This document shows, one piece after another, positions 10,390-19,989 of a stretch of 64,000 nucleotides of DNA (within the stretch, counting starts at the first letter, position 1; every line of letters begins with the position of its first letter). The notes beneath the pieces are model-generated. The model was not told the origin of the DNA, searched no databases, and saw only the letters and a list, made by a program, of their open reading frames with translations. Both the position numbers and the translations under genes were made by a program. The DNA comes from Salinispira pacifica (GTDB lineage: Bacteria > Spirochaetota > Spirochaetia > DSM-27196 > Salinispiraceae), in NCBI RefSeq assembly GCF_000507245.1, contig NC_023035.1:3391570-3455569 (forward strand), given 5' to 3'.

Positions 10390-11601
10390 ATGAAAGCAAC
10401 ACAATCCATATTCACAACAGCCATCTTCTTTCTATTCATATGCCTGGGCGGCATTGCCTTTGCACAGGACAGCCCCAATCCGGACCGGAGCGCTGCAGCT
10501 GAAGAGGCCACAGCGGACAACTCCCGAATCCAGCGGGCGGAAGTATCACCCCTCTACAGGGTAAGCCCCGGGGACGAATATCTTCTGTATGTGGGGAATC
10601 AGAACAACACCCAACTCCCCCTCAGCGTGGAAAGCGACTACAGTGTACGACTGGCCTTTCTGGGTACACTGGATGCAGCAGGACTGAGTTACGCCCAATT
10701 CCGGGAACAGGTGTATGCCCTGGTAAAAGAAAGCTACCCCCAAAGCATACCAAGAATGAGAATACGCAACCTGGGCCGGTTTGAAGTATCCTTCTCAGGG
10801 GAACTCAGCAACGCCGGCACAACCCTGGCGGACGGACTCACCCCCCTGAGTGAAGTGCTGACTTCCAGACTCACCTCCTTTTCAGATACCAGAAATATCA
10901 GTATCCGCAGAAACGACGGCAGCAGTCTCACAGTGGACTACTTCATGTTCTCCCGTACTGGCGAAAGGAAACACAACCCCTATCTCCACTACGGGGACAG
11001 AATTGAAGTTGAACGTGCTCAACGCATCGTGCAAATTGACGGGCAGGTGTTCAGACCCGGGCGGTATGTGCTTACAGAAAAAGACAGTCTGACTGACATA
11101 ATCCAGGAGTATGCCGACGGACTGCGGCACAACGCAGACAGAACCCAGATCAGCATCTTTCATCTCAACGGCTCATCTGAAACAGTGGATATACGCCGGG
11201 AAGAGAAGGATAACAATATCCATATAGATCATTTAAGCAGGATATTCGTGCCCCCAGCCCACAGCACCTCCCAATCCATGCAGCTTGAAGGTACAGCATC
11301 CATGGAAACCATCGGCTGGATACAAGTAACAGGGGATGTCCAAACCCCCGGAAAAATCCCATTCTCATCATGGAACCGCCCGGAACAGTACATCAACCAG
11401 GCAGGCCCCCAGGGCCGCTACCGCTACAGCGTCTATTCACAAAACGGGGAGAAAAAGAGTAACAGAGCCCCCCTGGCTCCCATGGATACCATCGTCGTTC
11501 AGCAGCGCCCCGCACAGTGGTTCATGAACTCCTGGCTGGCCCCCACAGTATCGTTAGCCACAGGAATTCTCACCCTCATCAGTATGATCCTCAACTTCTG
11601 A
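10390..11601 (+). CDS. Outer-membrane polysaccharide export protein (Wza-like, SLBB domains)
   Basis: 403 aa. Signal peptide MKATQSIFTTAIFFLFICLG ending at AFAQ. The Poly_export domain is at about 58-140 (YRVSPGDEYLLYVG, VRLAFLGTLDAAGLSYAQF), followed by SLBB-like segments at about 210-245 (IVQIDGQVFRPGRYVLTEKD) and about 310-345 (IQVTGDVQTPGKIPF), and a hydrophobic C-terminal helix ending LISMILNF. Such proteins form the outer-membrane exit channel for capsule or exopolysaccharide. It follows wzz by 15 nt. No lipobox cysteine is visible at the signal-peptide end, unlike classical Wza. Confidence 0.88.
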   Translation: MKATQSIFTTAIFFLFICLGGIAFAQDSPNPDRSAAAEEATADNSRIQRAEVSPLYRVSPGDEYLLYVGNQNNTQLPLSVESDYSVRLAFLGTLDAAGLSYAQFREQVYALVKESYPQSIPRMRIRNLGRFEVSFSGELSNAGTTLADGLTPLSEVLTSRLTSFSDTRNISIRRNDGSSLTVDYFMFSRTGERKHNPYLHYGDRIEVERAQRIVQIDGQVFRPGRYVLTEKDSLTDIIQEYADGLRHNADRTQISIFHLNGSSETVDIRREEKDNNIHIDHLSRIFVPPAHSTSQSMQLEGTASMETIGWIQVTGDVQTPGKIPFSSWNRPEQYINQAGPQGRYRYSVYSQNGEKKSNRAPLAPMDTIVVQQRPAQWFMNSWLAPTVSLATGILTLISMILNF

Positions 11602-11618
11602 AAGGCCTGTTCTCGATT

Positions 11619-11882
11619 ATGCTTAAATACCCGGTACTGTTTTATATTCAGACAGGAATGGCTGATACCGAAGAGATTAGGTTCAGCCTTCCGGACTTTG
11701 ACTATGAACACCCCCAATCCTACCCCTGCCTGCAGCAGGCTTTGCAGGCGGCCCGGGAAAAACTCCAGGCTCTTGTGCAGGATATGCTGGAGCACAATCT
11801 TCATTTTCCGCCCCCGTCTCTTCTTAAGGATGTGAGAACCAAAGGAAGTATGGGGTCATATGTGGCTGCCGGGTATGACTGA
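11619..11882 (+). CDS. Orphan HicB-like antitoxin-fold protein
   Basis: 87 aa starting at ATG 11619. The pattern MLKYPVLFYIQ, then FSLPDFDYEHPQSYPC, then LQQALQAAREKLQALVQDML and FPPPSLLKDV follows the HicB fold: a strand at the start, the F-P-D-F turn, a helix of the ALxxAxExL type, then P-P/E-P-S. HicB proteins normally neutralise a HicA mRNase, but no hicA gene lies on either side and there is no DNA-binding C-terminal domain. It is 17 nt after the export gene on the same strand and may simply ride on that transcript. Confidence 0.6.
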   Translation: MLKYPVLFYIQTGMADTEEIRFSLPDFDYEHPQSYPCLQQALQAAREKLQALVQDMLEHNLHFPPPSLLKDVRTKGSMGSYVAAGYD

Positions 11883-11933
11883 TTGTGTGTCCAGGGAGGG
11901 GTGATACTTGCCCCCACAGGCGGTTTTGTAATT

Positions 11934-12212
11934 CTACTGTTCAACCAGCTGTCCGGAAATATACTTATGCAAAACACTTTTCACGAATGCTTGATACCGC
12001 AATCCTTCACGTGCTGGCCGTTCTTTTATCTTTTCCAATTCAAACAGATCAATTCTGATATTCATCTTTTTTTCTTTTGGGATAAATTGCTTGGCAGCAT
12101 GTTTTAGCTTCGCTTGATCATCCGCAGAAGGCTAGTAGGCATCTGCTTCATCCACATAATCAAACGCTTCCAACATTTGCTTATCTTCGTCATCTATATA
12201 TTCAGGATTCAT
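11934..12212 (-). pseudogene. CopG-type (COG5304-like) antitoxin with an in-frame stop
   Basis: Reading leftward from the ATG ending at 12212 gives MNPEYIDDEDKQMLEAF through DEADAY, then a TAG at 12135-12137, then PSADDQAKLKHAAKQFI, KMNIRIDLFELEKIKER and GLRYQAFVKSVLHKYISGQL to a stop at 11934. The second part is a very good match to the ribbon-helix-helix antitoxins whose core is (V/M)NIRI...DLExI...G.pYQt.....HKY..G. One codon (TAG) breaks an otherwise intact 92-codon gene. Its start overlaps the stop of an upstream frame by one base (TAATG), the usual coupling of toxin and antitoxin genes. Confidence 0.75.
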
Positions 12213-12296
12213 TACCTCTCTGCTCTTGAGAAAGCGGCACCCTGGCTTTCCTTGAAACAGGTAGCTACGATCTGGTATTTGCCCAGTACGATTCCA
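12212..12296 (-). pseudogene. C-terminal remnant of the partner toxin gene
   Basis: The frame ending at the TAA overlapping the antitoxin ATG reads GIVLGKYQIVATCFKESQG then AAFSRAER. It is open back to about 12296, exactly where sequence shared with the nuclease repeat units begins, and it meets a stop inside that unit. The position (immediately upstream of a CopG antitoxin, one-base overlap) and the truncation point suggest the toxin gene was cut by the arrival or duplication of the repeat element. The residues are too few to name the toxin family. Confidence 0.45.
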
Positions 12297-12309
12297 GCCC
12301 CACCGCTTA

Positions 12310-12338
12310 TTTACTGCAGCACAGCCCTGCACTATAAT
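12310..12338 (+). promoter_or_regulatory. Strong sigma70-type promoter directly abutting the start codon (leaderless)
   Basis: TTTACT at 12310-12315, a 17-bp spacer, then a perfect TATAAT at 12333-12338. Only six bases separate the -10 box from the ATG at 12345, so transcription should start at or next to the A of the start codon, and no Shine-Dalgarno sequence fits. The same arrangement is preserved before copies 2, 3, 4 and 6 (TATAAT at 13328, 14357, 15364 and 17438). Confidence 0.65.
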
Positions 12339-12344
12339 ACTCCT

Positions 12345-13208
12345 ATGGAGAAACGCAGGCCGCTGAACCCCATGGCAGATGTGTTCGTACGCTACCTGCT
12401 GGGGTCGGAAAGCAATAAAGACATTCTCATCGATTTTCTCAACGCCGTATTCTCCCACAAAGGCCATGAGCTCGTTGTGGACCTGGAAATCAGAAACCCC
12501 TTTAATCTCACAACCATCCAGGAAAGCAAAGAAAGCATTCTGGATATAAAGGCAAAAGACCGCAATGGCCGCTGGATCAACGTGGAGGTTCAAGTCAGCC
12601 ACGAACCAAGCTACGCCGCCCGCAGTCTCTACTACTGGGCTAAAAGCTACACAGACCAGCTATCCCGGGGCGACGTCTACTCGGATCTATCCCCATCTGT
12701 CTGCATCAATCTGCTGGATTTCACCCTCTTTCCGGAACTCTCCGACTTTCACAGCTGCTTCCAGATAACCGAAAAAGATCACAAAGAATACATTCTCACT
12801 GAACATCTGGAAATCCACTTCATCGAACTATCCAAACTTGATTTCACCGCCATACCCAATTTTGAAACTGCCATACTGCGCTGGTGTTATTATTTTAAAA
12901 ACGAAGGAAACATACAGGAGGATACCATGCCCGTACTTCTCAAAGATAATCCCGCAATCGAAAAAGCCCACCATGTCTATGAAGATTTCACATCTGATGA
13001 GCAGCTCATGGACATGGCCGAAGCCCATGAAAAATGGGTAAAAGACGTAAACACCCGCCTCAAAACCGCACGGCAGCAGGGGCTTGAACAGGGGCTTGAG
13101 CAAGCCAGGATTGAGGATGCGAAAAAGATGCTGCAGGAAGGATTGGATATTGCTCTCATTTGCAGAATCACCGGCTTGAATGAAGATCAGATCAAAAAAT
13201 TAACCTGA
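12345..13208 (+). CDS. Rpn/PD-(D/E)XK nuclease family transposase, copy 1 (intact)
   Basis: 287 aa from the ATG after the TATAAT box; the frame is open upstream to 12114, but that stretch is outside the repeat unit. It fits the Rpn/TIGR01784 family: N-terminal NPMADVFVRYLLGSESNKDIL, then a PD-(D/E)XK core with Asp67 (SILDIKAKD) and the Glu81-x-Gln83 motif (WINVEVQ), then an alpha-helical C-terminus. Residues about 245-256 carry two GLEQ units, followed by a tail of the type KKMLQEGLDIALICRITGLN. E. coli Rpn proteins are nucleases that promote recA-independent recombination; activity here is inferred. This is one of two fully intact copies. Confidence 0.9.
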   Translation: MEKRRPLNPMADVFVRYLLGSESNKDILIDFLNAVFSHKGHELVVDLEIRNPFNLTTIQESKESILDIKAKDRNGRWINVEVQVSHEPSYAARSLYYWAKSYTDQLSRGDVYSDLSPSVCINLLDFTLFPELSDFHSCFQITEKDHKEYILTEHLEIHFIELSKLDFTAIPNFETAILRWCYYFKNEGNIQEDTMPVLLKDNPAIEKAHHVYEDFTSDEQLMDMAEAHEKWVKDVNTRLKTARQQGLEQGLEQARIEDAKKMLQEGLDIALICRITGLNEDQIKKLT

Positions 13209-13291
13209 CATCCTGCCCCCCCCCCCGGCAGCTAGCGCCAGGAAATCCGCAGCCGCTTGAGCTGGGGTGACCAGCCGACTGCTTCACTAGT
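13209..13291 (+). repeat. Inter-unit spacer with poly-C hairpin (first of several)
   Basis: After the stop comes CATCCTGCC, a C run, and GGCAGCTAGCG. CTGCC and GGCAG can pair around the C run as a small hairpin. The C run is 11 nt here (13216-13226), 10 nt after copy 2, 11 nt after copy 3 and 6 nt after the copy-5 scrap. The hairpin could act as a weak terminator or be the end of the mobile unit; no T run follows it. Confidence 0.6.
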
Positions 13292-13339
13292 GCCCCACCG
13301 CTTATTTACTGCAGCACAGCCCTGCACTATAATACTCCT

Positions 13340-14238
13340 ATGGAGAAACGCAGGCCGCTGAACCCCATGGCAGATGTGTTCGTACGCTACCTGCTGGGGT
13401 CGGAAAGCAATAAAGACATTCTCATCGATTTTCTCAACGCCGTATTCTCCCACAAAGGTCATGAGCTCGTTGTGGATCTGGAAATCAGAAACCCCTTTAA
13501 TCTCACAACCATCCAGGAGAGCAAAGAAAGCATTCTGGATATAAAGGCAAAAGACCGCAATGGCCGCTGGATCAACGTGGAGGTTCAAGTCAGCCACGAA
13601 CCAAGCTACGCCGCCCGCAGTCTCTACTACTGGGCCAAAAGCTACACGGACCAGCTATCCCGGGCGACGTCTACTCGGATCTATCCCCATCTGTCTGCAT
13701 CAATCTGCTGGATTTCACCCTCTTTCCGGAACTCTCCGACTTTCACAGCTGCTTCCAGATAACCGAAAAAGATCACAAAGAATACATTCTCACTGAACAT
13801 CTGGAAATCCACTTCATCGAACTATCCAAACTTGATTTCACCGCCATACCCAATTTTGAAACTGCCATACTGCGCTGGTGTTATTATTTTAAAAACGAAG
13901 GAAACATACAGGAGGATACCATGCCCGTACTTCTCAAAGATAATCCCGCAATCGAAAAAGCCCACCATGTCTATGAAGATTTCACCTCTGATGAGCAGCT
14001 CATGGACATGGCCGAAGCCCATGAAAAATGGGTAAAAGATGTGAACACCCGCCTCAAAACCGCACGGCAGCAGGGGCTTGAACAGGGGCTGGAACAAGGA
14101 CTTGAGCAAGGGCTTGAGCAGGGGCTTGAGCAAGCTAAAATTGAGGATGCGAAAAAGATGCTGCAAAAAGGATATCCCATCGTCGACATCGCAGAAATCA
14201 CCGGCTTGAATGAAGATCAGATCAAAAAATTAACCTGA
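13340..14238 (+). pseudogene. Rpn/PD-(D/E)XK nuclease family transposase, copy 2 (frameshifted)
   Basis: Same gene as copy 1, with the same start and promoter. The frame breaks at 13662-13664, where the other copies have GGGG and this one has GGG. The first frame therefore ends at 13762 after scrambling from residue 108, and the rest continues in the original reading to 14238. The catalytic Asp67 and Glu81-x-Gln83 lie before the break, so a truncated nuclease domain could still be made. The C-terminal part has five GLEQ units and the alternative tail KKMLQKGYPIVDIAEITGLN. An internal ATG at 13921 could express the C-terminal 105 residues. Confidence 0.88.
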
Positions 14239-14368
14239 CATCCTGCCCCCCCCCCGGCAGCTAGCGCCAGGAAATCCGCAGCCGCTTGAGCTGGGGTGAC
14301 CAGCCGACTGCTTCACTAGTGCCCCACCGCTTATTTACTGCAGCACAGCCCTGCACTATAATACTCCT

Positions 14369-15244
14369 ATGGAGAAACGCAGGCCGCTGAACCCCATGGC
14401 AGATGTGTTCGTACGCTACCTGCTGGGGTCGGAAAGCAATAAAGACATTCTCATCGATTTTCTCAACGCCGTATTCTCCCACAAAGGTCATGAGCTCGTT
14501 GTGGATCTGGAAATCAGAAACCCCTTTAATCTCACAACCATCCAGGAGAGCAAAGAAAGCATTCTGGATATAAAGGCAAAAGACCGCAATGGCCGCTGGA
14601 TCAACGTGGAGGTTCAAGTCAGCCACGAACCAAGCTACGCCGCCCGCAGTCTCTACTACTGGGCCAAAAGCTACACGGACCAGCTATCCCGGGGCGACGT
14701 CTACTCGGATCTATCCCCATCTGTCTGCATCAATCTGCTGGATTTCACCCTCTTTCCGGAACTCTCCGACTTTCACAGCTGCTTCCAGATAACCGAAAAA
14801 GATCACAAAGAATACATTCTCACCGAACATCTGGAAATCCACTTCATCGAACTATCCAAACTTGATTTCACCGCCATACCCAATTTTGAAACTGCCATAC
14901 TGCGCTGGTGTTATTATTTTAAAAACGAAGGAAACATACAGGAGGATACCATGCCCGTACTTCTCAAAGATAATCCCGCAATCGAAAAAGCCCACCATGT
15001 CTATGAAGATTTCACCTCTGATGAGCAGCTCATGGACATGGCCGAAGCCCATGAAAAATGGGTAAAAGACGTAAACACCCGCCTCAAAACCGCACGGCAG
15101 CAGGGGCTTGAACAGGGGCTTGAACAGGGGCTTGAGCAAGCTAAAATTGAGGATGCGAAAAAGATGCTGCAGGAAGGATTGGATATTGCTCTCATTTGCA
15201 GAATCACCGGCTTGAGTGAAGATCAGATCAAAAAATTAACCTGA
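14369..15244 (+). CDS. Rpn/PD-(D/E)XK nuclease family transposase, copy 3 (intact)
   Basis: 291 aa, complete, with Asp67 and Glu81-x-Gln83 preserved and the GGGG run intact. It is nearly identical to copy 1 but carries three GLEQ units instead of two, and ends QEGLDIALICRITGLSEDQ. It shares silent differences with copy 2 in the first half (for example CAAAGGTCAT and GTGGATCTGG), so its 5' half is closer to copy 2 and its 3' tail closer to copy 1. That is a sign of exchange between copies. Leaderless promoter as in copy 1. Confidence 0.9.
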   Translation: MEKRRPLNPMADVFVRYLLGSESNKDILIDFLNAVFSHKGHELVVDLEIRNPFNLTTIQESKESILDIKAKDRNGRWINVEVQVSHEPSYAARSLYYWAKSYTDQLSRGDVYSDLSPSVCINLLDFTLFPELSDFHSCFQITEKDHKEYILTEHLEIHFIELSKLDFTAIPNFETAILRWCYYFKNEGNIQEDTMPVLLKDNPAIEKAHHVYEDFTSDEQLMDMAEAHEKWVKDVNTRLKTARQQGLEQGLEQGLEQAKIEDAKKMLQEGLDIALICRITGLSEDQIKKLT

Positions 15245-15375
15245 CATCCTGCCCCCCCCCCCGGCAGCTAGCGCCAGGAAATCCGCAGCCGCTTGAGCTG
15301 GGGTTACCAGCCGACTGCTTCACTAGTGCCCCACCGCTTATTTACTGCAGCACAGCCCTGCACTATAATACTCCT

Positions 15376-16066
15376 ATGGAGAAACGCAGGCCGCTGGATC
15401 AACGTGGAGGTTCAAGTCAGCCACGAACCAAGCTACGCCGCCCGCAGTCTCTACTACTGGGCTAAAAGCTACACAGACCAGCTATCCCGGGGCGACGTCT
15501 ACTCGGATCTATCCCCGTCGGTCTGCATCAATCTGCTGGATTTCACCCTCTTTCCGGAACTCTCCGACTTTCACAGCTGCTTCCAGATAACCGAAAAAGA
15601 TCACAAAGAATACATTCTCACCGAACATCTGGAAATCCACTTCATCGAACTATCCAAACTTGATTTCACCGCCATACCCAATTTTGAAACTGCCATACTG
15701 CGCTGGTGTTATTATTTTAAAAACGAAGGAAACATACAGGAGGATACCATGCCCGTACTTCTCAAAGATAATCCCGCAATCGAAAAAGCCCACCATGTCT
15801 ATGAAGATTTCACCTCTGATGAGCAGCTCATGGACATGGCCGAAGCCCATGAAAAATGGGTAAAAGACGTAAACACCCGCCTCAAAACCGCACGGCAGCA
15901 GGGGCTTGAGCAGGGGCTGGAACAAGGACTTGAGCAAGGGCTTGAGCAGGGGCTTGAGCAAGCTAAAATTGAGGATGCGAAAAAGATGCTGCAGGAGGGG
16001 CTGGAAATTGCTCTCATTAGCAAAATAACCGGGTTAAGTGAAGACCAAGTTCAGACACTGAAATGA
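15376..16066 (+). pseudogene. Rpn/PD-(D/E)XK nuclease family transposase, copy 4 (209-bp deletion)
   Basis: The promoter and ATG at 15376 are intact, but after 13 bases the sequence jumps to the region encoding RWINVEVQ. Against copy 3 the missing stretch is 209 bp (14382-14590) and lies between two copies of GGCCGCTG, of which one remains. Because 209 is not a multiple of 3, the native ATG is out of frame with the rest; the remaining frame is open from 15293 to 16066 only by reading through the spacer. The catalytic Asp67 is lost. The 3' part has five GLEQ units and a third tail type (QEGLEIALISKITGLSEDQV). The downstream flank is no longer repeat-unit sequence. Confidence 0.88.
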
Positions 16067-16228
16067 TGTTTCTACAGTACCGCACAGGTATTTTATCATA
16101 AAACCGACTATTCATTGGTAAAAGCATTTTTAATTTTTCCGAGATCCACATAAGTGAAGCATCCGCCGGCTCATTATACCTTTCCTTCTGTTTTACATAA
16201 TGCAATACACCAGATAAGAACAACGACT

Positions 16229-16642
16229 TCACTCAACGACGGCTACAACACAGCGGGCGAACTCCCGGAAGTCGTCAAGATGCATGCTGATAATGGAGTA
16301 AAGAATTTGAACATCCATTTCCTGATACTCGTGAACGGCAATATTGCGAAATCCTACCGCCCGGCTTAATCTGCCGGCCAGGTCGACATCCAAAATACCG
16401 GCGGAGGCAAGGTCCGAGAACCCCGCACTCATGCTGGAGGGTGCCCGCAAGCCTCTGCTTACCAGAACGTGGGCTGAAATATCAACACATTGCTGCACCG
16501 CCCTCTCAATATTGAGGACAATAATGTCCTGGGCATCCAGATCGGTGGACAAGATTTCCGCATCCTCAGGCTTTTTTTCTTCAATCCGCCTGATACAGCG
16601 ACGCAGGGACGCCAGCTTACTGAGTATGAGCTCAACGTTCAT
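16229..16642 (-). CDS. hepT: HepT-like HEPN toxin
   Basis: 137 aa, all-helical. The HEPN RNase motif R-x4-H-x-Y is present as RNIAVHEY (Arg99, His104, Tyr106). The DUF86-like body matches HepT: LDAQDIIVLNIERAVQQCVDI, then FSDLASAGILD. Known HepT proteins cleave RNA and are silenced by the partner nucleotidyltransferase MntA, which AMPylates the tyrosine of this motif. Its start lies 11 nt inside the mntA gene, so the pair is translationally coupled. It is on the opposite strand to the nuclease array that encloses it. Confidence 0.88.
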   Translation of the reverse strand: MNVELILSKLASLRRCIRRIEEKKPEDAEILSTDLDAQDIIVLNIERAVQQCVDISAHVLVSRGLRAPSSMSAGFSDLASAGILDVDLAGRLSRAVGFRNIAVHEYQEMDVQILYSIISMHLDDFREFARCVVAVVE

Positions 16643-17027
16643 CTATCCAGTCCTTCACACTTTCCTTCTGCGCCTGTAACACAGACGGAAGAAGATTTTC
16701 CCGGTAATCCATCGCTTTTATGGCAAGACTGCTGCGAAGCATCACATCTTCCACAAGCACTTCACCGCCAATGGCTTCACATAAAATCAGACCTTCTGCG
16801 CTGAATAAATCGATTACATCCACGGTTCTAAAGAGAACAGCTTCAACAGCGGTTGCCAGATCGATCTTCCGTTCTATACTCATCTCACCGGAGTGCAGGG
16901 CGATGGCAATATCAATATCAGATTCCGGGGTCATTGTACCTTGAGAAGCAGAGCCGAACAGTAATGCCAAGCGGACATCTGTATCAGTTTTTAGAAATTC
17001 TTGTGCCCCACGGGCTATGTCGTTCAT
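16632..17027 (-). CDS. mntA: MntA-like minimal nucleotidyltransferase antitoxin
   Basis: 131 aa from the ATG ending at 17027, chosen because GGGGAG lies 5 nt upstream; the frame is open to 17111 without a ribosome site. The GSx10DxD motif is GSASQGTMTPESDIDIAI with Gly25/Ser26 and the two aspartates at 37 and 39; a third acidic residue is likely in RTVDVIDLF. MntA proteins AMPylate HepT and so act as antitoxin. The antitoxin gene precedes and overlaps the toxin gene, the usual order for this system. The protein ends KESVKDWIDER and looks full length. Confidence 0.88.
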   Translation of the reverse strand: MNDIARGAQEFLKTDTDVRLALLFGSASQGTMTPESDIDIAIALHSGEMSIERKIDLATAVEAVLFRTVDVIDLFSAEGLILCEAIGGEVLVEDVMLRSSLAIKAMDYRENLLPSVLQAQKESVKDWIDER

Positions 17028-17129
17028 ATCGCTCCCCGCTGAAACAGCGCATTCCGTTTTACCGGTCTTTAATGGAAGTGTAGCATAGTTTCGACGGTTT
17101 TTTACATACACTCATACTTCAGGGGGTCG

Positions 17130-17159
17130 ACAATATCCTTCAATTCCGGTGGATATTGT
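17130..17159. promoter_or_regulatory. Inverted repeat upstream of mntA, next to the array scrap
   Basis: ACAATATCC (17130-17138) and GGATATTGT (17151-17159) form perfect 9-bp arms around a 12-base loop. It lies about 100 bp upstream of the mntA start and ten bases before the first base of the copy-5 scrap. It could be an operator for the toxin-antitoxin pair or a mark of the insertion junction. Function is not shown. Confidence 0.35.
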
Positions 17160-17168
17160 GATGGGATG

Positions 17169-17323
17169 CCGCACGGCAGCAGGGGCTTGAACAGGGTCTG
17201 GAACAAGGACTTGAGCAAGCTAAAATTGAGGATGCGAAAAAGATGCTGCAAAAAGGATATCCCATCGTCGACATCGCAGAAATCACCGGTTTGAGTGAAG
17301 AACAGATCAAGAAATTAACCTGA
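17169..17323 (+). pseudogene. Rpn-family copy 5, C-terminal scrap
   Basis: Only the last about 50 codons remain, from the ACC-GCA-CGG-CAG region to the stop at 17321-17323. It contains three GLEQ units, then AKIEDAKKMLQKGYPIVDIA and EITGLSEEQIKKLT, the same tail type as copies 2 and 6. There is no start codon or promoter. The left end is abrupt, next to the DNA that carries HepT/MntA. It is followed by the normal spacer with a shortened C run (6 nt). Confidence 0.85.
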
Positions 17324-17449
17324 CATCCTGCCCCCCGGCAGCTAGCGTCAGGAAATCCGCAGCCGTTTGAGCTGGGGTTACCAGCCGACTGCTTCACTAG
17401 TGCCCCACCGGTTATTTACTGCAGCACAGCCCTGCACTATAATACTCCT

Positions 17450-17743
17450 ATGGAGAAACGCAGCATCGTACTTCTCAAAGATAATCCCGCAATCGAAAAA
17501 GCCCACCATGTCTATGAAGATTTCACCTCTGATGAACAGCTCATGGACATGGCCGAGGCCCATGAAAAATGGGTAAAAGACGTAAACACCCGCCTCAAAA
17601 CCGCACGGCAGCAGGGGCTTGAACAGGGGCTTGAGCAAGCTAAAATTGAAGATGCGAAAAAGATGCTGCAAAAAGGATATCCCATCGTCGACATCGCAGA
17701 AATCACCGGTTTGAGTGAAGAACAGATCAAGAAACTCGAATGA
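17450..17743 (+). CDS. Rpn-family copy 6, in-frame internal deletion lacking the nuclease domain
   Basis: 97 aa. The promoter, ATG and first four codons (MEKR) are retained, then the gene continues at SIVLLKDNPAIEKAHHVYED, so about 190 residues including the whole PD-(D/E)XK core are gone but the frame is kept. It has two GLEQ units and ends AEITGLSEEQIKKLE, with a different stop region from the other copies (CTCGAATGA). If expressed from the leaderless promoter it would be a small helical protein with the C-terminal oligomer-like region only. It may be a dead relic or a modulator of the intact copies; only the first is the default. Confidence 0.65.
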   Translation: MEKRSIVLLKDNPAIEKAHHVYEDFTSDEQLMDMAEAHEKWVKDVNTRLKTARQQGLEQGLEQAKIEDAKKMLQKGYPIVDIAEITGLSEEQIKKLE

Positions 17744-17775
17744 ACTAACAACAGAAAAAGATGAAGGTTTGATAT

Positions 17776-19989
17776 ATGAATGAAATAGGAGCACGATACT
17801 CACACAAGATGTTGGATGAAATCCTTCCCCCGGCCTTTGATTATGCCCGGAGAAAGAGGATCGGAGAGGCCCGATTAAAGGAGCTGGATCAGTCATACCT
17901 GGCCGAAAATCAGGATGAAGAGAATCTCGATATGATGGCGGGAATGCTGGTGGCTGGCTCTCTGTTCACCTCAGCCAAGCTTGCGGGGGCATTTCTACGC
18001 AGTCAGGGTGATGAGCTCAGCGAAGAAGCCGGTAAAATGGCACGGATGTGGCGAAAGACGCCTTGGACCTATATGGCAGTTGATATTCTGGAGCGCATAG
18101 ACGACAGTCCCTTTTTTCGCATGAAGGCCTTGGGTGGAAAGCCGAAAACCTTTGCCGCTGAAGAGGATTGGCCTGAGTTCACCCTGTAGTCCCCGGCGCT
18201 GAGGGAGCTTCATTCAGACGGGTACACCCGGTTCTTTTCCCTGTACTGGAGATCACAGGAGTGCTGGCACAGTTACGGGCCCATAATCCCCTTACCGCAA
18301 CTTGAGAATAAGACCGATCTGCGCTACTACGCCGAAGTATCAACCCCCAACCGGAAACACAGCAGGATTATTGGTGCCCGCCAGACCCCGAATTCCGGGG
18401 ATTACCCTTTGAGTGAGCGTGTTACTTCCAACCCAATCCCCTGGATACGCCTCATCGAAATATCCGGGATGCCGAAGGTGCGAAACCCCAGGTTCACCAT
18501 AGGCATGTTTGCCTCTTACGCTGAGCATCCGGAAAACCCGGCGGATGAATCTTCCATTCAGAATGCGGCTGAGGAAATATCAGACTTAATTAATACGAGC
18601 AAATTCCTTGCCCGGCGGCGAATGCTTGATGATCCGAATGTGGGATTGGCAGCTGCCATATCAATCGAATCCCCCCACAGGCATGCGGATATGAGCTCGG
18701 TATACATCCACCAGGGAACAGTGTATCTCAAGAGTATCGCCCGGGAGAGCTATGATGAGATCAGGGAAGTGCTTGAACCGATTGTTCAGCTGCCCGAAGA
18801 CCCCATGCTTGATGTGAGTTTCGGCTTATATACCTTTGCGGACGACTGGTATGCCGCCACCGACACGCTGCATCTGCTCATCGAAGCCTTCGATGACGAA
18901 ATATTTGATGGTGATGAAGAAGACTTGGACGACGACGGGGGCTTTCCCGACGGGAACAAGCCTTCTGCAACCATGCCGGATTTCAATATCACCACAGATT
19001 TGGACACAATCAATGCCGTATCTGCAGAATTAATCACTGCCCGGAACGCCGGCGAAGAGCCGGATATCAACAGAATCATGAAGAACACCGGGGCCTCCCG
19101 CAGCAATGTTGAAGCCATACAGAAAATGATCGAGTATTCATTGTCCAACATGGGCGTTGATACTGATATCCCCGGACCCTTCGATTTACCCCCGGCGGCA
19201 GTTCATGCCCTCACAAGCCCTCCTCTGGAGGAAGCCGAGGGACTGCTTTCCCTGGATAATCTGGCACAACTTAAGCCTGCCGCATTCCAGAACGTGCCGA
19301 TTATCCGGCTGTACAAAGCCCTCACGGAAGCGGAAGATCCAGGGGGCTTCATACCCGTCACAGCAGCAGGTTATATAAAACCGGCAATTGTGAAAAAACT
19401 GGCACAGATATTGCCCGACCAGCTTGGGTTCCTGGAACCGGAGGAGGTTAAAAAAGAATCGGACTGGTTCTGGCTGGAACGGATGCGAAACCTGCTCACC
19501 AGCGCGGATATTCTTCTGGTTGAATCCAAGGGGTTCAGACTTGCATTTACCGGGACGGATCCGGCCACGATAAAAGATATCTACCTGCGTACTCTCAGCG
19601 CCCTGTTCCGCCACCACCCCTGGGGAACTCACCCCCGCTTCAATTTTGAAGATGAAAGCTGGATTCACGGAACATCCGCCCTTCTTCTTTACGGGCTGAA
19701 ATATCTTGCGGATAATGCCGCAGACCATAGAGTCTACGATTATGAGATGGCACCCCATCTGGCAAGATATGTGCCCGAGTACCGTGAAACGCTGCGGGAC
19801 GATCCGGACCAAGACCCCCGCAAGTTCGATACCCCCGTGGGTTACCTCGGCTACCGGGTAATCAGCCTGTTTTTTCAACAGTTTTGCATCCCTTTGGGGC
19901 TGGCAGAGAGTATTGAAGTTGAACCCTTGAAGCCTAAACCTGTTGTTCCAACCCCCTTGCTGGATGCTCTGGTACGGCTGAGAACATGA
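17776..19989 (+). pseudogene. Large protein of unknown function interrupted by one in-frame TAG
   Basis: One reading frame runs from ATG 17776 (AAGG 8 nt upstream) to 19989, 737 codons, broken only by TAG at 18187-18189. The sense flow across the stop (EEDWPEFTL, stop, SPALRELHSDGYTRFFSLYW) looks continuous. A CAG-to-TAG change would explain it. The part after the stop could start at TTG 18409 without a ribosome site. The middle has an acidic run (FDGDEEDLDDDGG). The segment FIPVTAAGYIKPAIVKKLAQ followed 40 residues later by MRNLLTSADILLVESKGFRL resembles the winged-helix-like region seen in some pRiA4b ORF3/SEC-C-type accessory proteins. That similarity is only an impression. Function unknown. 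Confidence 0.7.

Follow-up and report, generated by a model that had tools for sequence, protein, structure and literature searches.

Background

In Escherichia coli the full-length product of an Rpn gene, RpnL, is a toxic DNA endonuclease, and an internal start in the same gene gives its antitoxin, RpnS (Zhong et al. 2023, PMC10327210). The pairing between RpnS and RpnL is governed by helical four-residue repeats; RpnS is specific to its own RpnL, and one extra repeat (E. coli RpnC) abolishes neutralisation. The same authors describe tandem rpn arrays, stand-alone RpnS genes and one plasmid-borne Rpn that protects against phages, and they leave standing the question of how RpnL gets released from RpnS. 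Here we analyze a stretch of 64,000 nucleotides from the chromosome of Salinispira pacifica (NC_023035.1, positions 3,391,570 to 3,455,569; hereafter the window, in which positions are counted from its first letter) that carries six head-to-tail copies of one rpn gene. We consider it highly likely that this locus holds toxin-antitoxin units of the Rpn gene-within-gene type in tandem: the sequence, reading frames, starts and conservation are observed directly, and the nuclease, antitoxin and defence roles are carried over from the E. coli Rpn proteins.

Results

Family identity. The two intact proteins announced by an earlier annotation made from the sequence alone (the original prediction) are encoded by copies 1 and 3. 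Their profile matches to PF12784 (1.3e-54) and TIGR01784 (7.7e-53) place the Rpn PD-(D/E)XK domain in them, and residues D67, E81, Q83 and R93, the first three of which are catalytic, are invariant in 25 aligned sequences. The family profile also matches the RpnA-S structure 7TH0 with E 4.7e-5, over 38 tail positions only. In an AlphaFold2 model with a mean predicted local distance difference test score of 85, a single long helix at residues 219–268 holds the GLEQ repeats. Comparison of the whole model with the PDB by Foldseek adds little, with no match at E <= 0.001 and the restriction enzyme EcoT38I as the best hit (1.6e-2), and PADLOC returned no match for the Rpn protein. From these profile matches, the array proteins are Rpn nucleases of a gene-within-gene toxin-antitoxin family, and not transposases. 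The copies had been labelled as an Rpn/PD-(D/E)XK transposase family, a description that is right in its first part but wrong in calling the proteins transposases. A transposon or transposase interpretation was considered and rejected, as there are no long inverted repeats at the array and published work on the family rejects it too; the search covered inverted repeats of at least 40 nt at 11500–18700 and found none, shorter terminal repeats not being searched.

The internal start. Copies 1–4 all contain AGGAGG-ATACC-ATG in frame at RpnL codon 195, with a Shine-Dalgarno (SD) pairing energy of -10.3, and a C-terminal frame of 93–105 residues is open from there. Every in-frame start of the full-length relatives was scored by its pairing with the 16S tail. 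Of the 13 spirochaete genes compared, a set that contains copies 1 and 3, 12 have their strongest internal start at codon 193–195 (query numbering), and the SD nucleotides at this start are encoded by differing codons and residues (QED, EEE, RGE, RGRP and SKED). Shortened copies in the relatives G007 and G006 also retain it. When the internal SD was tested by synonymous shuffling gene by gene, the result was not significant (P 0.21–0.25 for copies 3 and 1), since AGGAGG already follows from the residues QED, and the argument for the start therefore rests on its conserved position across genes. We take this internal ATG with its perfect SD as the predicted start of RpnS.

The RpnL start. In the array, and likewise in the relatives G019, G010, G027, G006 and G007, the best-matching sigma-70-like site combines a 17-nt spacer with a -10 element that ends 6–7 nt before the RpnL ATG. 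The same -10/ATG layout occurs in none of the 32 other long genes of the window and at 9 of 1035 arbitrary ATGs. In a seventh relative, TATAAT stands 7 nt ahead of the homologous ATG, but the -35 element is weak. The geometry was also sought in more distant relatives and not found there; in several of them the RpnL start is preceded by a good SD. Provided that transcription initiates at the usual distance downstream of the -10, a spacing of 6–7 nt places the 5' end of the message on or beside the ATG, and the RpnL message is probably leaderless.

Array structure. Direct repeats of 200–300 nt with 85–100% identity recur at spacings of 994–995, 1029–1030 and 1006–1007 bp, the last step being larger, in agreement with the periods near 1.0 kb noted in the original prediction. 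The repeat analysis, the promoter sites and the alignment likewise bear out five unit starts behind the same TTTACT-17-TATAAT site and one C-terminal scrap (Table 1). The six copies had all been recognized, but the internal start codons, the open in-frame copy 6 and a HepT/MntA gene pair inside the array had been missed.

Table 1. Features of the rpn array (positions in the window; RpnS products are predicted)
Feature	Position	Strand	Details
Promoter-like site, copy 1 (TTTACT-17-TATAAT)	12310..12338	+	-10 ends 6 nt before RpnL ATG
Promoter-like site repeats, copies 2, 3, 4, 6	13305-13333, 14334-14362, 15341-15369, 17415-17443		
Copy 1	12345..13208	+	intact RpnL (PD-(D/E)XK nuclease), 2 GLEQ repeats, tail alpha
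RpnS of copy 1	12927..13208	+	93 residues, internal ATG, AGGAGG 5 nt upstream
Copy 2	13340..14238	+	RpnL frameshifted, catalytic half broken, 5 GLEQ repeats, tail beta
RpnS of copy 2	13921..14238	+	105 residues, intact with internal SD-ATG
Copy 3	14369..15244	+	intact RpnL, 3 GLEQ repeats, tail alpha
RpnS of copy 3	14951..15244	+	97 residues
Copy 4	15376..16066	+	RpnL start out of frame, 5 GLEQ repeats, tail gamma
RpnS of copy 4	15749..16066	+	105 residues, intact with internal SD-ATG
HepT-family RNase toxin	16229..16642	-	inside the Rpn array
MntA-family adenylyltransferase antitoxin	16632..17111	-	
Copy 5	17162..17323	+	C-terminal scrap, 3 GLEQ repeats, tail beta, without usable start codon
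Copy 6	17450..17743	+	stand-alone RpnS-like gene, 97 residues, 2 GLEQ repeats, tail beta

In the stretch from codon 6 up to the repeats, copies 1, 2, 3, 4 and 6 show 11 scored variable sites, every one of them synonymous (expected fraction 0.21–0.27, P about 1e-7), and two of these differences are private to the RpnS of copy 6. The number of GLEQ repeats and the last ~35 codons vary from copy to copy, the latter falling into three tail types that differ mutually at roughly 20–36 of 130 nt. The intergenic spacers of copies 1–3 are 99–100% identical. Alignment columns 352/364 unite copies 1 and 4 versus 2 and 3, whereas column 511 unites 1 and 2 versus 3 and 4; all four combinations exist, and the copies have therefore recombined. 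A recent tandem amplification with deletions, as the original prediction had proposed, is supported by the near-identical spacers, the mosaic polymorphisms and a 209-bp deletion in copy 4 between two 8-bp copies of GGCCGCTG. A poly-C tract lies just past the stop of copies 1, 2, 3 and 5 (13216, 14246, 15252 and 17331), with lengths of 11, 10, 11 and 6.

Decay of the copies. The several kinds of decay noticed at the outset are present, but they do not look haphazard: the toxin half is lost, and what survives is usually the antitoxin half. In copy 2 a GGGG run (13662–13664) is one G short, which shifts the frame in the catalytic half; in copy 4 the deletion abolishes the frame from the first start; and copy 6 consists of the promoter and four initial codons, followed in frame by the C-terminal third, the RpnS part. 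RpnS is open in three of the four damaged copies (2, 4 and 6), and copy 5 is a remnant without a start. Classifying in the relatives only those copies that are not cut by contig ends, we found 14 copies without a working catalytic half in which the RpnS region is open, 3 in the array and 11 elsewhere; one of the latter is an in-frame fusion (G007) and another an out-of-frame deletion (G006). A single opposite case (G021:C56) retains the N part, but its tail is truncated and G replaces its catalytic D (SVAGVR, compared with SVVDVK in relatives). With 14 of 15 lesions in the N part, P is about 0.02 under a null of one random lesion per gene. We regard the bias as suggestive only.

Other rpn loci and neighboring genes. 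Tandem rpn genes occur in other genomes as well, with three copies of 73–89% identity on G044:C275 and two copies of 99% identity before the contig end on G010:C8. In G010 the contigs C8, C7, C3 and C34 all end inside near-identical rpn copies, and copies with 2–12 repeats are present. These contig ends suggest tandem arrays collapsed in a short-read assembly, and by extension that such arrays are hidden in short-read genomes. The view that Rpn genes are usually dispersed and not in tandem, adopted in the original prediction, is at odds with the tandem rpn arrays already known (Zhong et al. 2023, PMC10327210).

Elsewhere in the S. pacifica chromosome, at 1.016–1.045 Mb, there are four near-identical PF04754-type rpn genes with differing numbers of QQGMQQ repeats. 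Their surroundings (1.014–1.048 Mb) encode large paralogous proteins that have one region in common but differ at their C-terminal ends; both of the two paralogues tested match Peptidase_M23, one just under the cut-off. This may be a polymorphic toxin-like cluster. The C-terminal tails of PF04754-type and PF12784-type Rpn proteins closely resemble each other (for example GFPIADISEITGLSEQEIKKL), as though a cassette had been swapped between the subfamilies.

The HepT/MntA pair sits between rpn copies 4 and 5 and matches NF047751 and NF047752 above the cut-off. It belongs to the type VII toxin-antitoxin systems, a protein family unrelated to Rpn, though it lies within the Rpn array, and among HepT relatives in the 60 other genomes searched none shared a contig position with an rpn copy.

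Discussion

These results lead us to propose the following scenario. In a complete unit, RpnL, a PD-(D/E)XK DNA endonuclease toxin, would be made from a promoter very close to its ATG, and the internal in-frame ATG with its perfect SD would yield the C-terminal antitoxin RpnS, presumably in excess. RpnS would bind RpnL through the repeat helix and hold the nuclease off, by analogy with the E. coli Rpn proteins, whose published role is phage defence. The array may have grown by tandem duplication and diversified by slippage of the 12-bp repeats and by exchange of tail cassettes, with the protein sequence of the body held constant meanwhile. Deletions and a frameshift would have removed toxin halves, leaving two toxin-antitoxin units, three antitoxin-only units and one remnant.

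Three observations weigh against parts of this scenario. The excess of toxin-half losses in the order (14 versus 1) reaches only P about 0.02, and the counts lack independence since the copies have a common ancestry. The -10/ATG geometry reflects agreement with a consensus and not a mapped transcription start, and it is limited to the close subfamily. Finally, one extra repeat abolishes neutralisation in the experiments of Zhong et al., so the 5-repeat RpnS of copies 2 and 4 should misfit the 2- and 3-repeat toxins, and some antitoxin-only copies are therefore likelier to be leftovers than helpers. If the one-repeat rule holds here, only copy 6, with 2 repeats, would match a surviving toxin, that of copy 1, and it has a different tail. 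As for the RpnS of copies 2 and 4, the toxins they once paired with may be gone, or they may guard against other toxins, and we claim no function for them.

The strongest alternative concerns only the antitoxin-only copies and is compatible with the Rpn identity of the array. The family may simply be decaying: tandem duplication would have produced surplus copies whose toxin halves were then lost, the antitoxin-only copies having no current selected function and their RpnS parts persisting for lack of time. The near identity of the copies, the missing start of copy 5 and the 5-repeat orphan RpnS, which match the repeat number of no surviving toxin, are all in line with this notion. On the other side, all scored body differences are synonymous, including the two private to the RpnS of copy 6; copy 6 retains its promoter, start and frame; and similar toxin-half losses recur in other genomes. 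On balance we judge simple decay to be only slightly less probable than its opposite.

It is also conceivable, but unlikely, that the antitoxin-only copies serve as anti-addiction or protective antitoxins against other Rpn toxins, whether lost, incoming on mobile DNA, or encoded by the PF04754-type set. Copies 2 and 4 do have repeat numbers and tails unlike those of the resident toxins, related Rpn genes occur on plasmids and on phage WO, and the four PF04754-type genes with variable repeats provide candidate targets within the same genome. However, no matching 5-repeat toxin was found in the S. pacifica genome, and RpnS is reported to be specific to its own RpnL (PMC10327210).

We find it quite improbable that the Rpn nuclease, by cutting at its own array, is what causes amplification and deletion there. 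The Rpn proteins of E. coli do increase recombination that is independent of RecA (PMC5350276), and self-involvement was raised as a speculation by Zhong et al. 2023 (PMC10327210), but the junctions show a deletion at an 8-bp microhomology and slippage of 12-bp repeats, for which no special enzyme is required, and the locus has no inverted repeats of at least 40 nt. The original prediction that intact copies may help to cut and reshuffle the array is left unsupported, as microhomology deletion and slippage account for the junctions. Least of all do we expect rpn copies to have been invented or merged in assembly: near-identical repeats are a known hazard and several contigs of G010 end inside rpn copies, but the S. 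pacifica copies are set apart by their spacers, tails, repeat numbers and an inserted gene pair, and the genome, one contig of 3,782,798 bp from strain L21-RPul-D2, a spirochaete of a hypersaline mat, was assembled at 365x from a PacBio library of >10 kb, with Illumina and 454 data as a check (PMC4511686). An assembly error at the array is accordingly unlikely, and the single-base G4-to-G3 lesion of copy 2 could be a consensus error.

Returning to the toxin-antitoxin interpretation of the array, its layout leads us to speculate about how the toxin might be released. Leaderless translation is regulated differently from SD-led translation and has been reported to rise under oxidative stress with ppGpp (PMC9031893). 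A switch in translation mode between the leaderless RpnL start and the SD-led RpnS start of the same gene could release the toxin: weaker SD-dependent initiation, or favored leaderless initiation, would raise RpnL over RpnS without degradation of the antitoxin. Possible triggers are ppGpp, oxidative stress, or a phage-induced change of initiation factors or S1. Copy 6 would then be a leaderless RpnS, a brake rising along with the toxin. We hold this proposal to be rather doubtful as it stands, but the leaderless-toxin and SD-antitoxin layout offers a simple release mechanism that is open to reporter checks. Moreover, the array supplies natural variants of one toxin-antitoxin pair with hardly any differences beyond repeat number and tail, and the rule by which an antitoxin fits a toxin is directly testable with them.

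Comparison with known systems

The Rpn/YhgA-like nucleases (Kingston et al. 2017, PMC5350276; PF04754) resemble the array proteins in belonging to the PD-(D/E)XK endonuclease superfamily and in having a variable C-terminal tail, and S. pacifica itself carries four copies of the PF04754 type. Unlike these, the array bodies match PF12784 and TIGR01784, and the array locus is without sign of gene mobilisation. The RpnL/RpnS systems of E. coli and Clostridioides difficile (PMC10327210; 7TH0) have in common with the array the PD-(D/E)XK nuclease, an SD-led internal start in frame and a long helix with four-residue repeats of variable number, and both tandem arrays and RpnS genes standing alone have been reported among them. 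In contrast to them, RpnL of S. pacifica looks leaderless, its RpnS is longer (93–105 residues versus about 49), the array mixes two full units with three antitoxin-only units, and the tails come in three exchangeable types. The array, with its antitoxin-only derivatives and its leaderless-toxin layout, is a variant of the known Rpn toxin-antitoxin.

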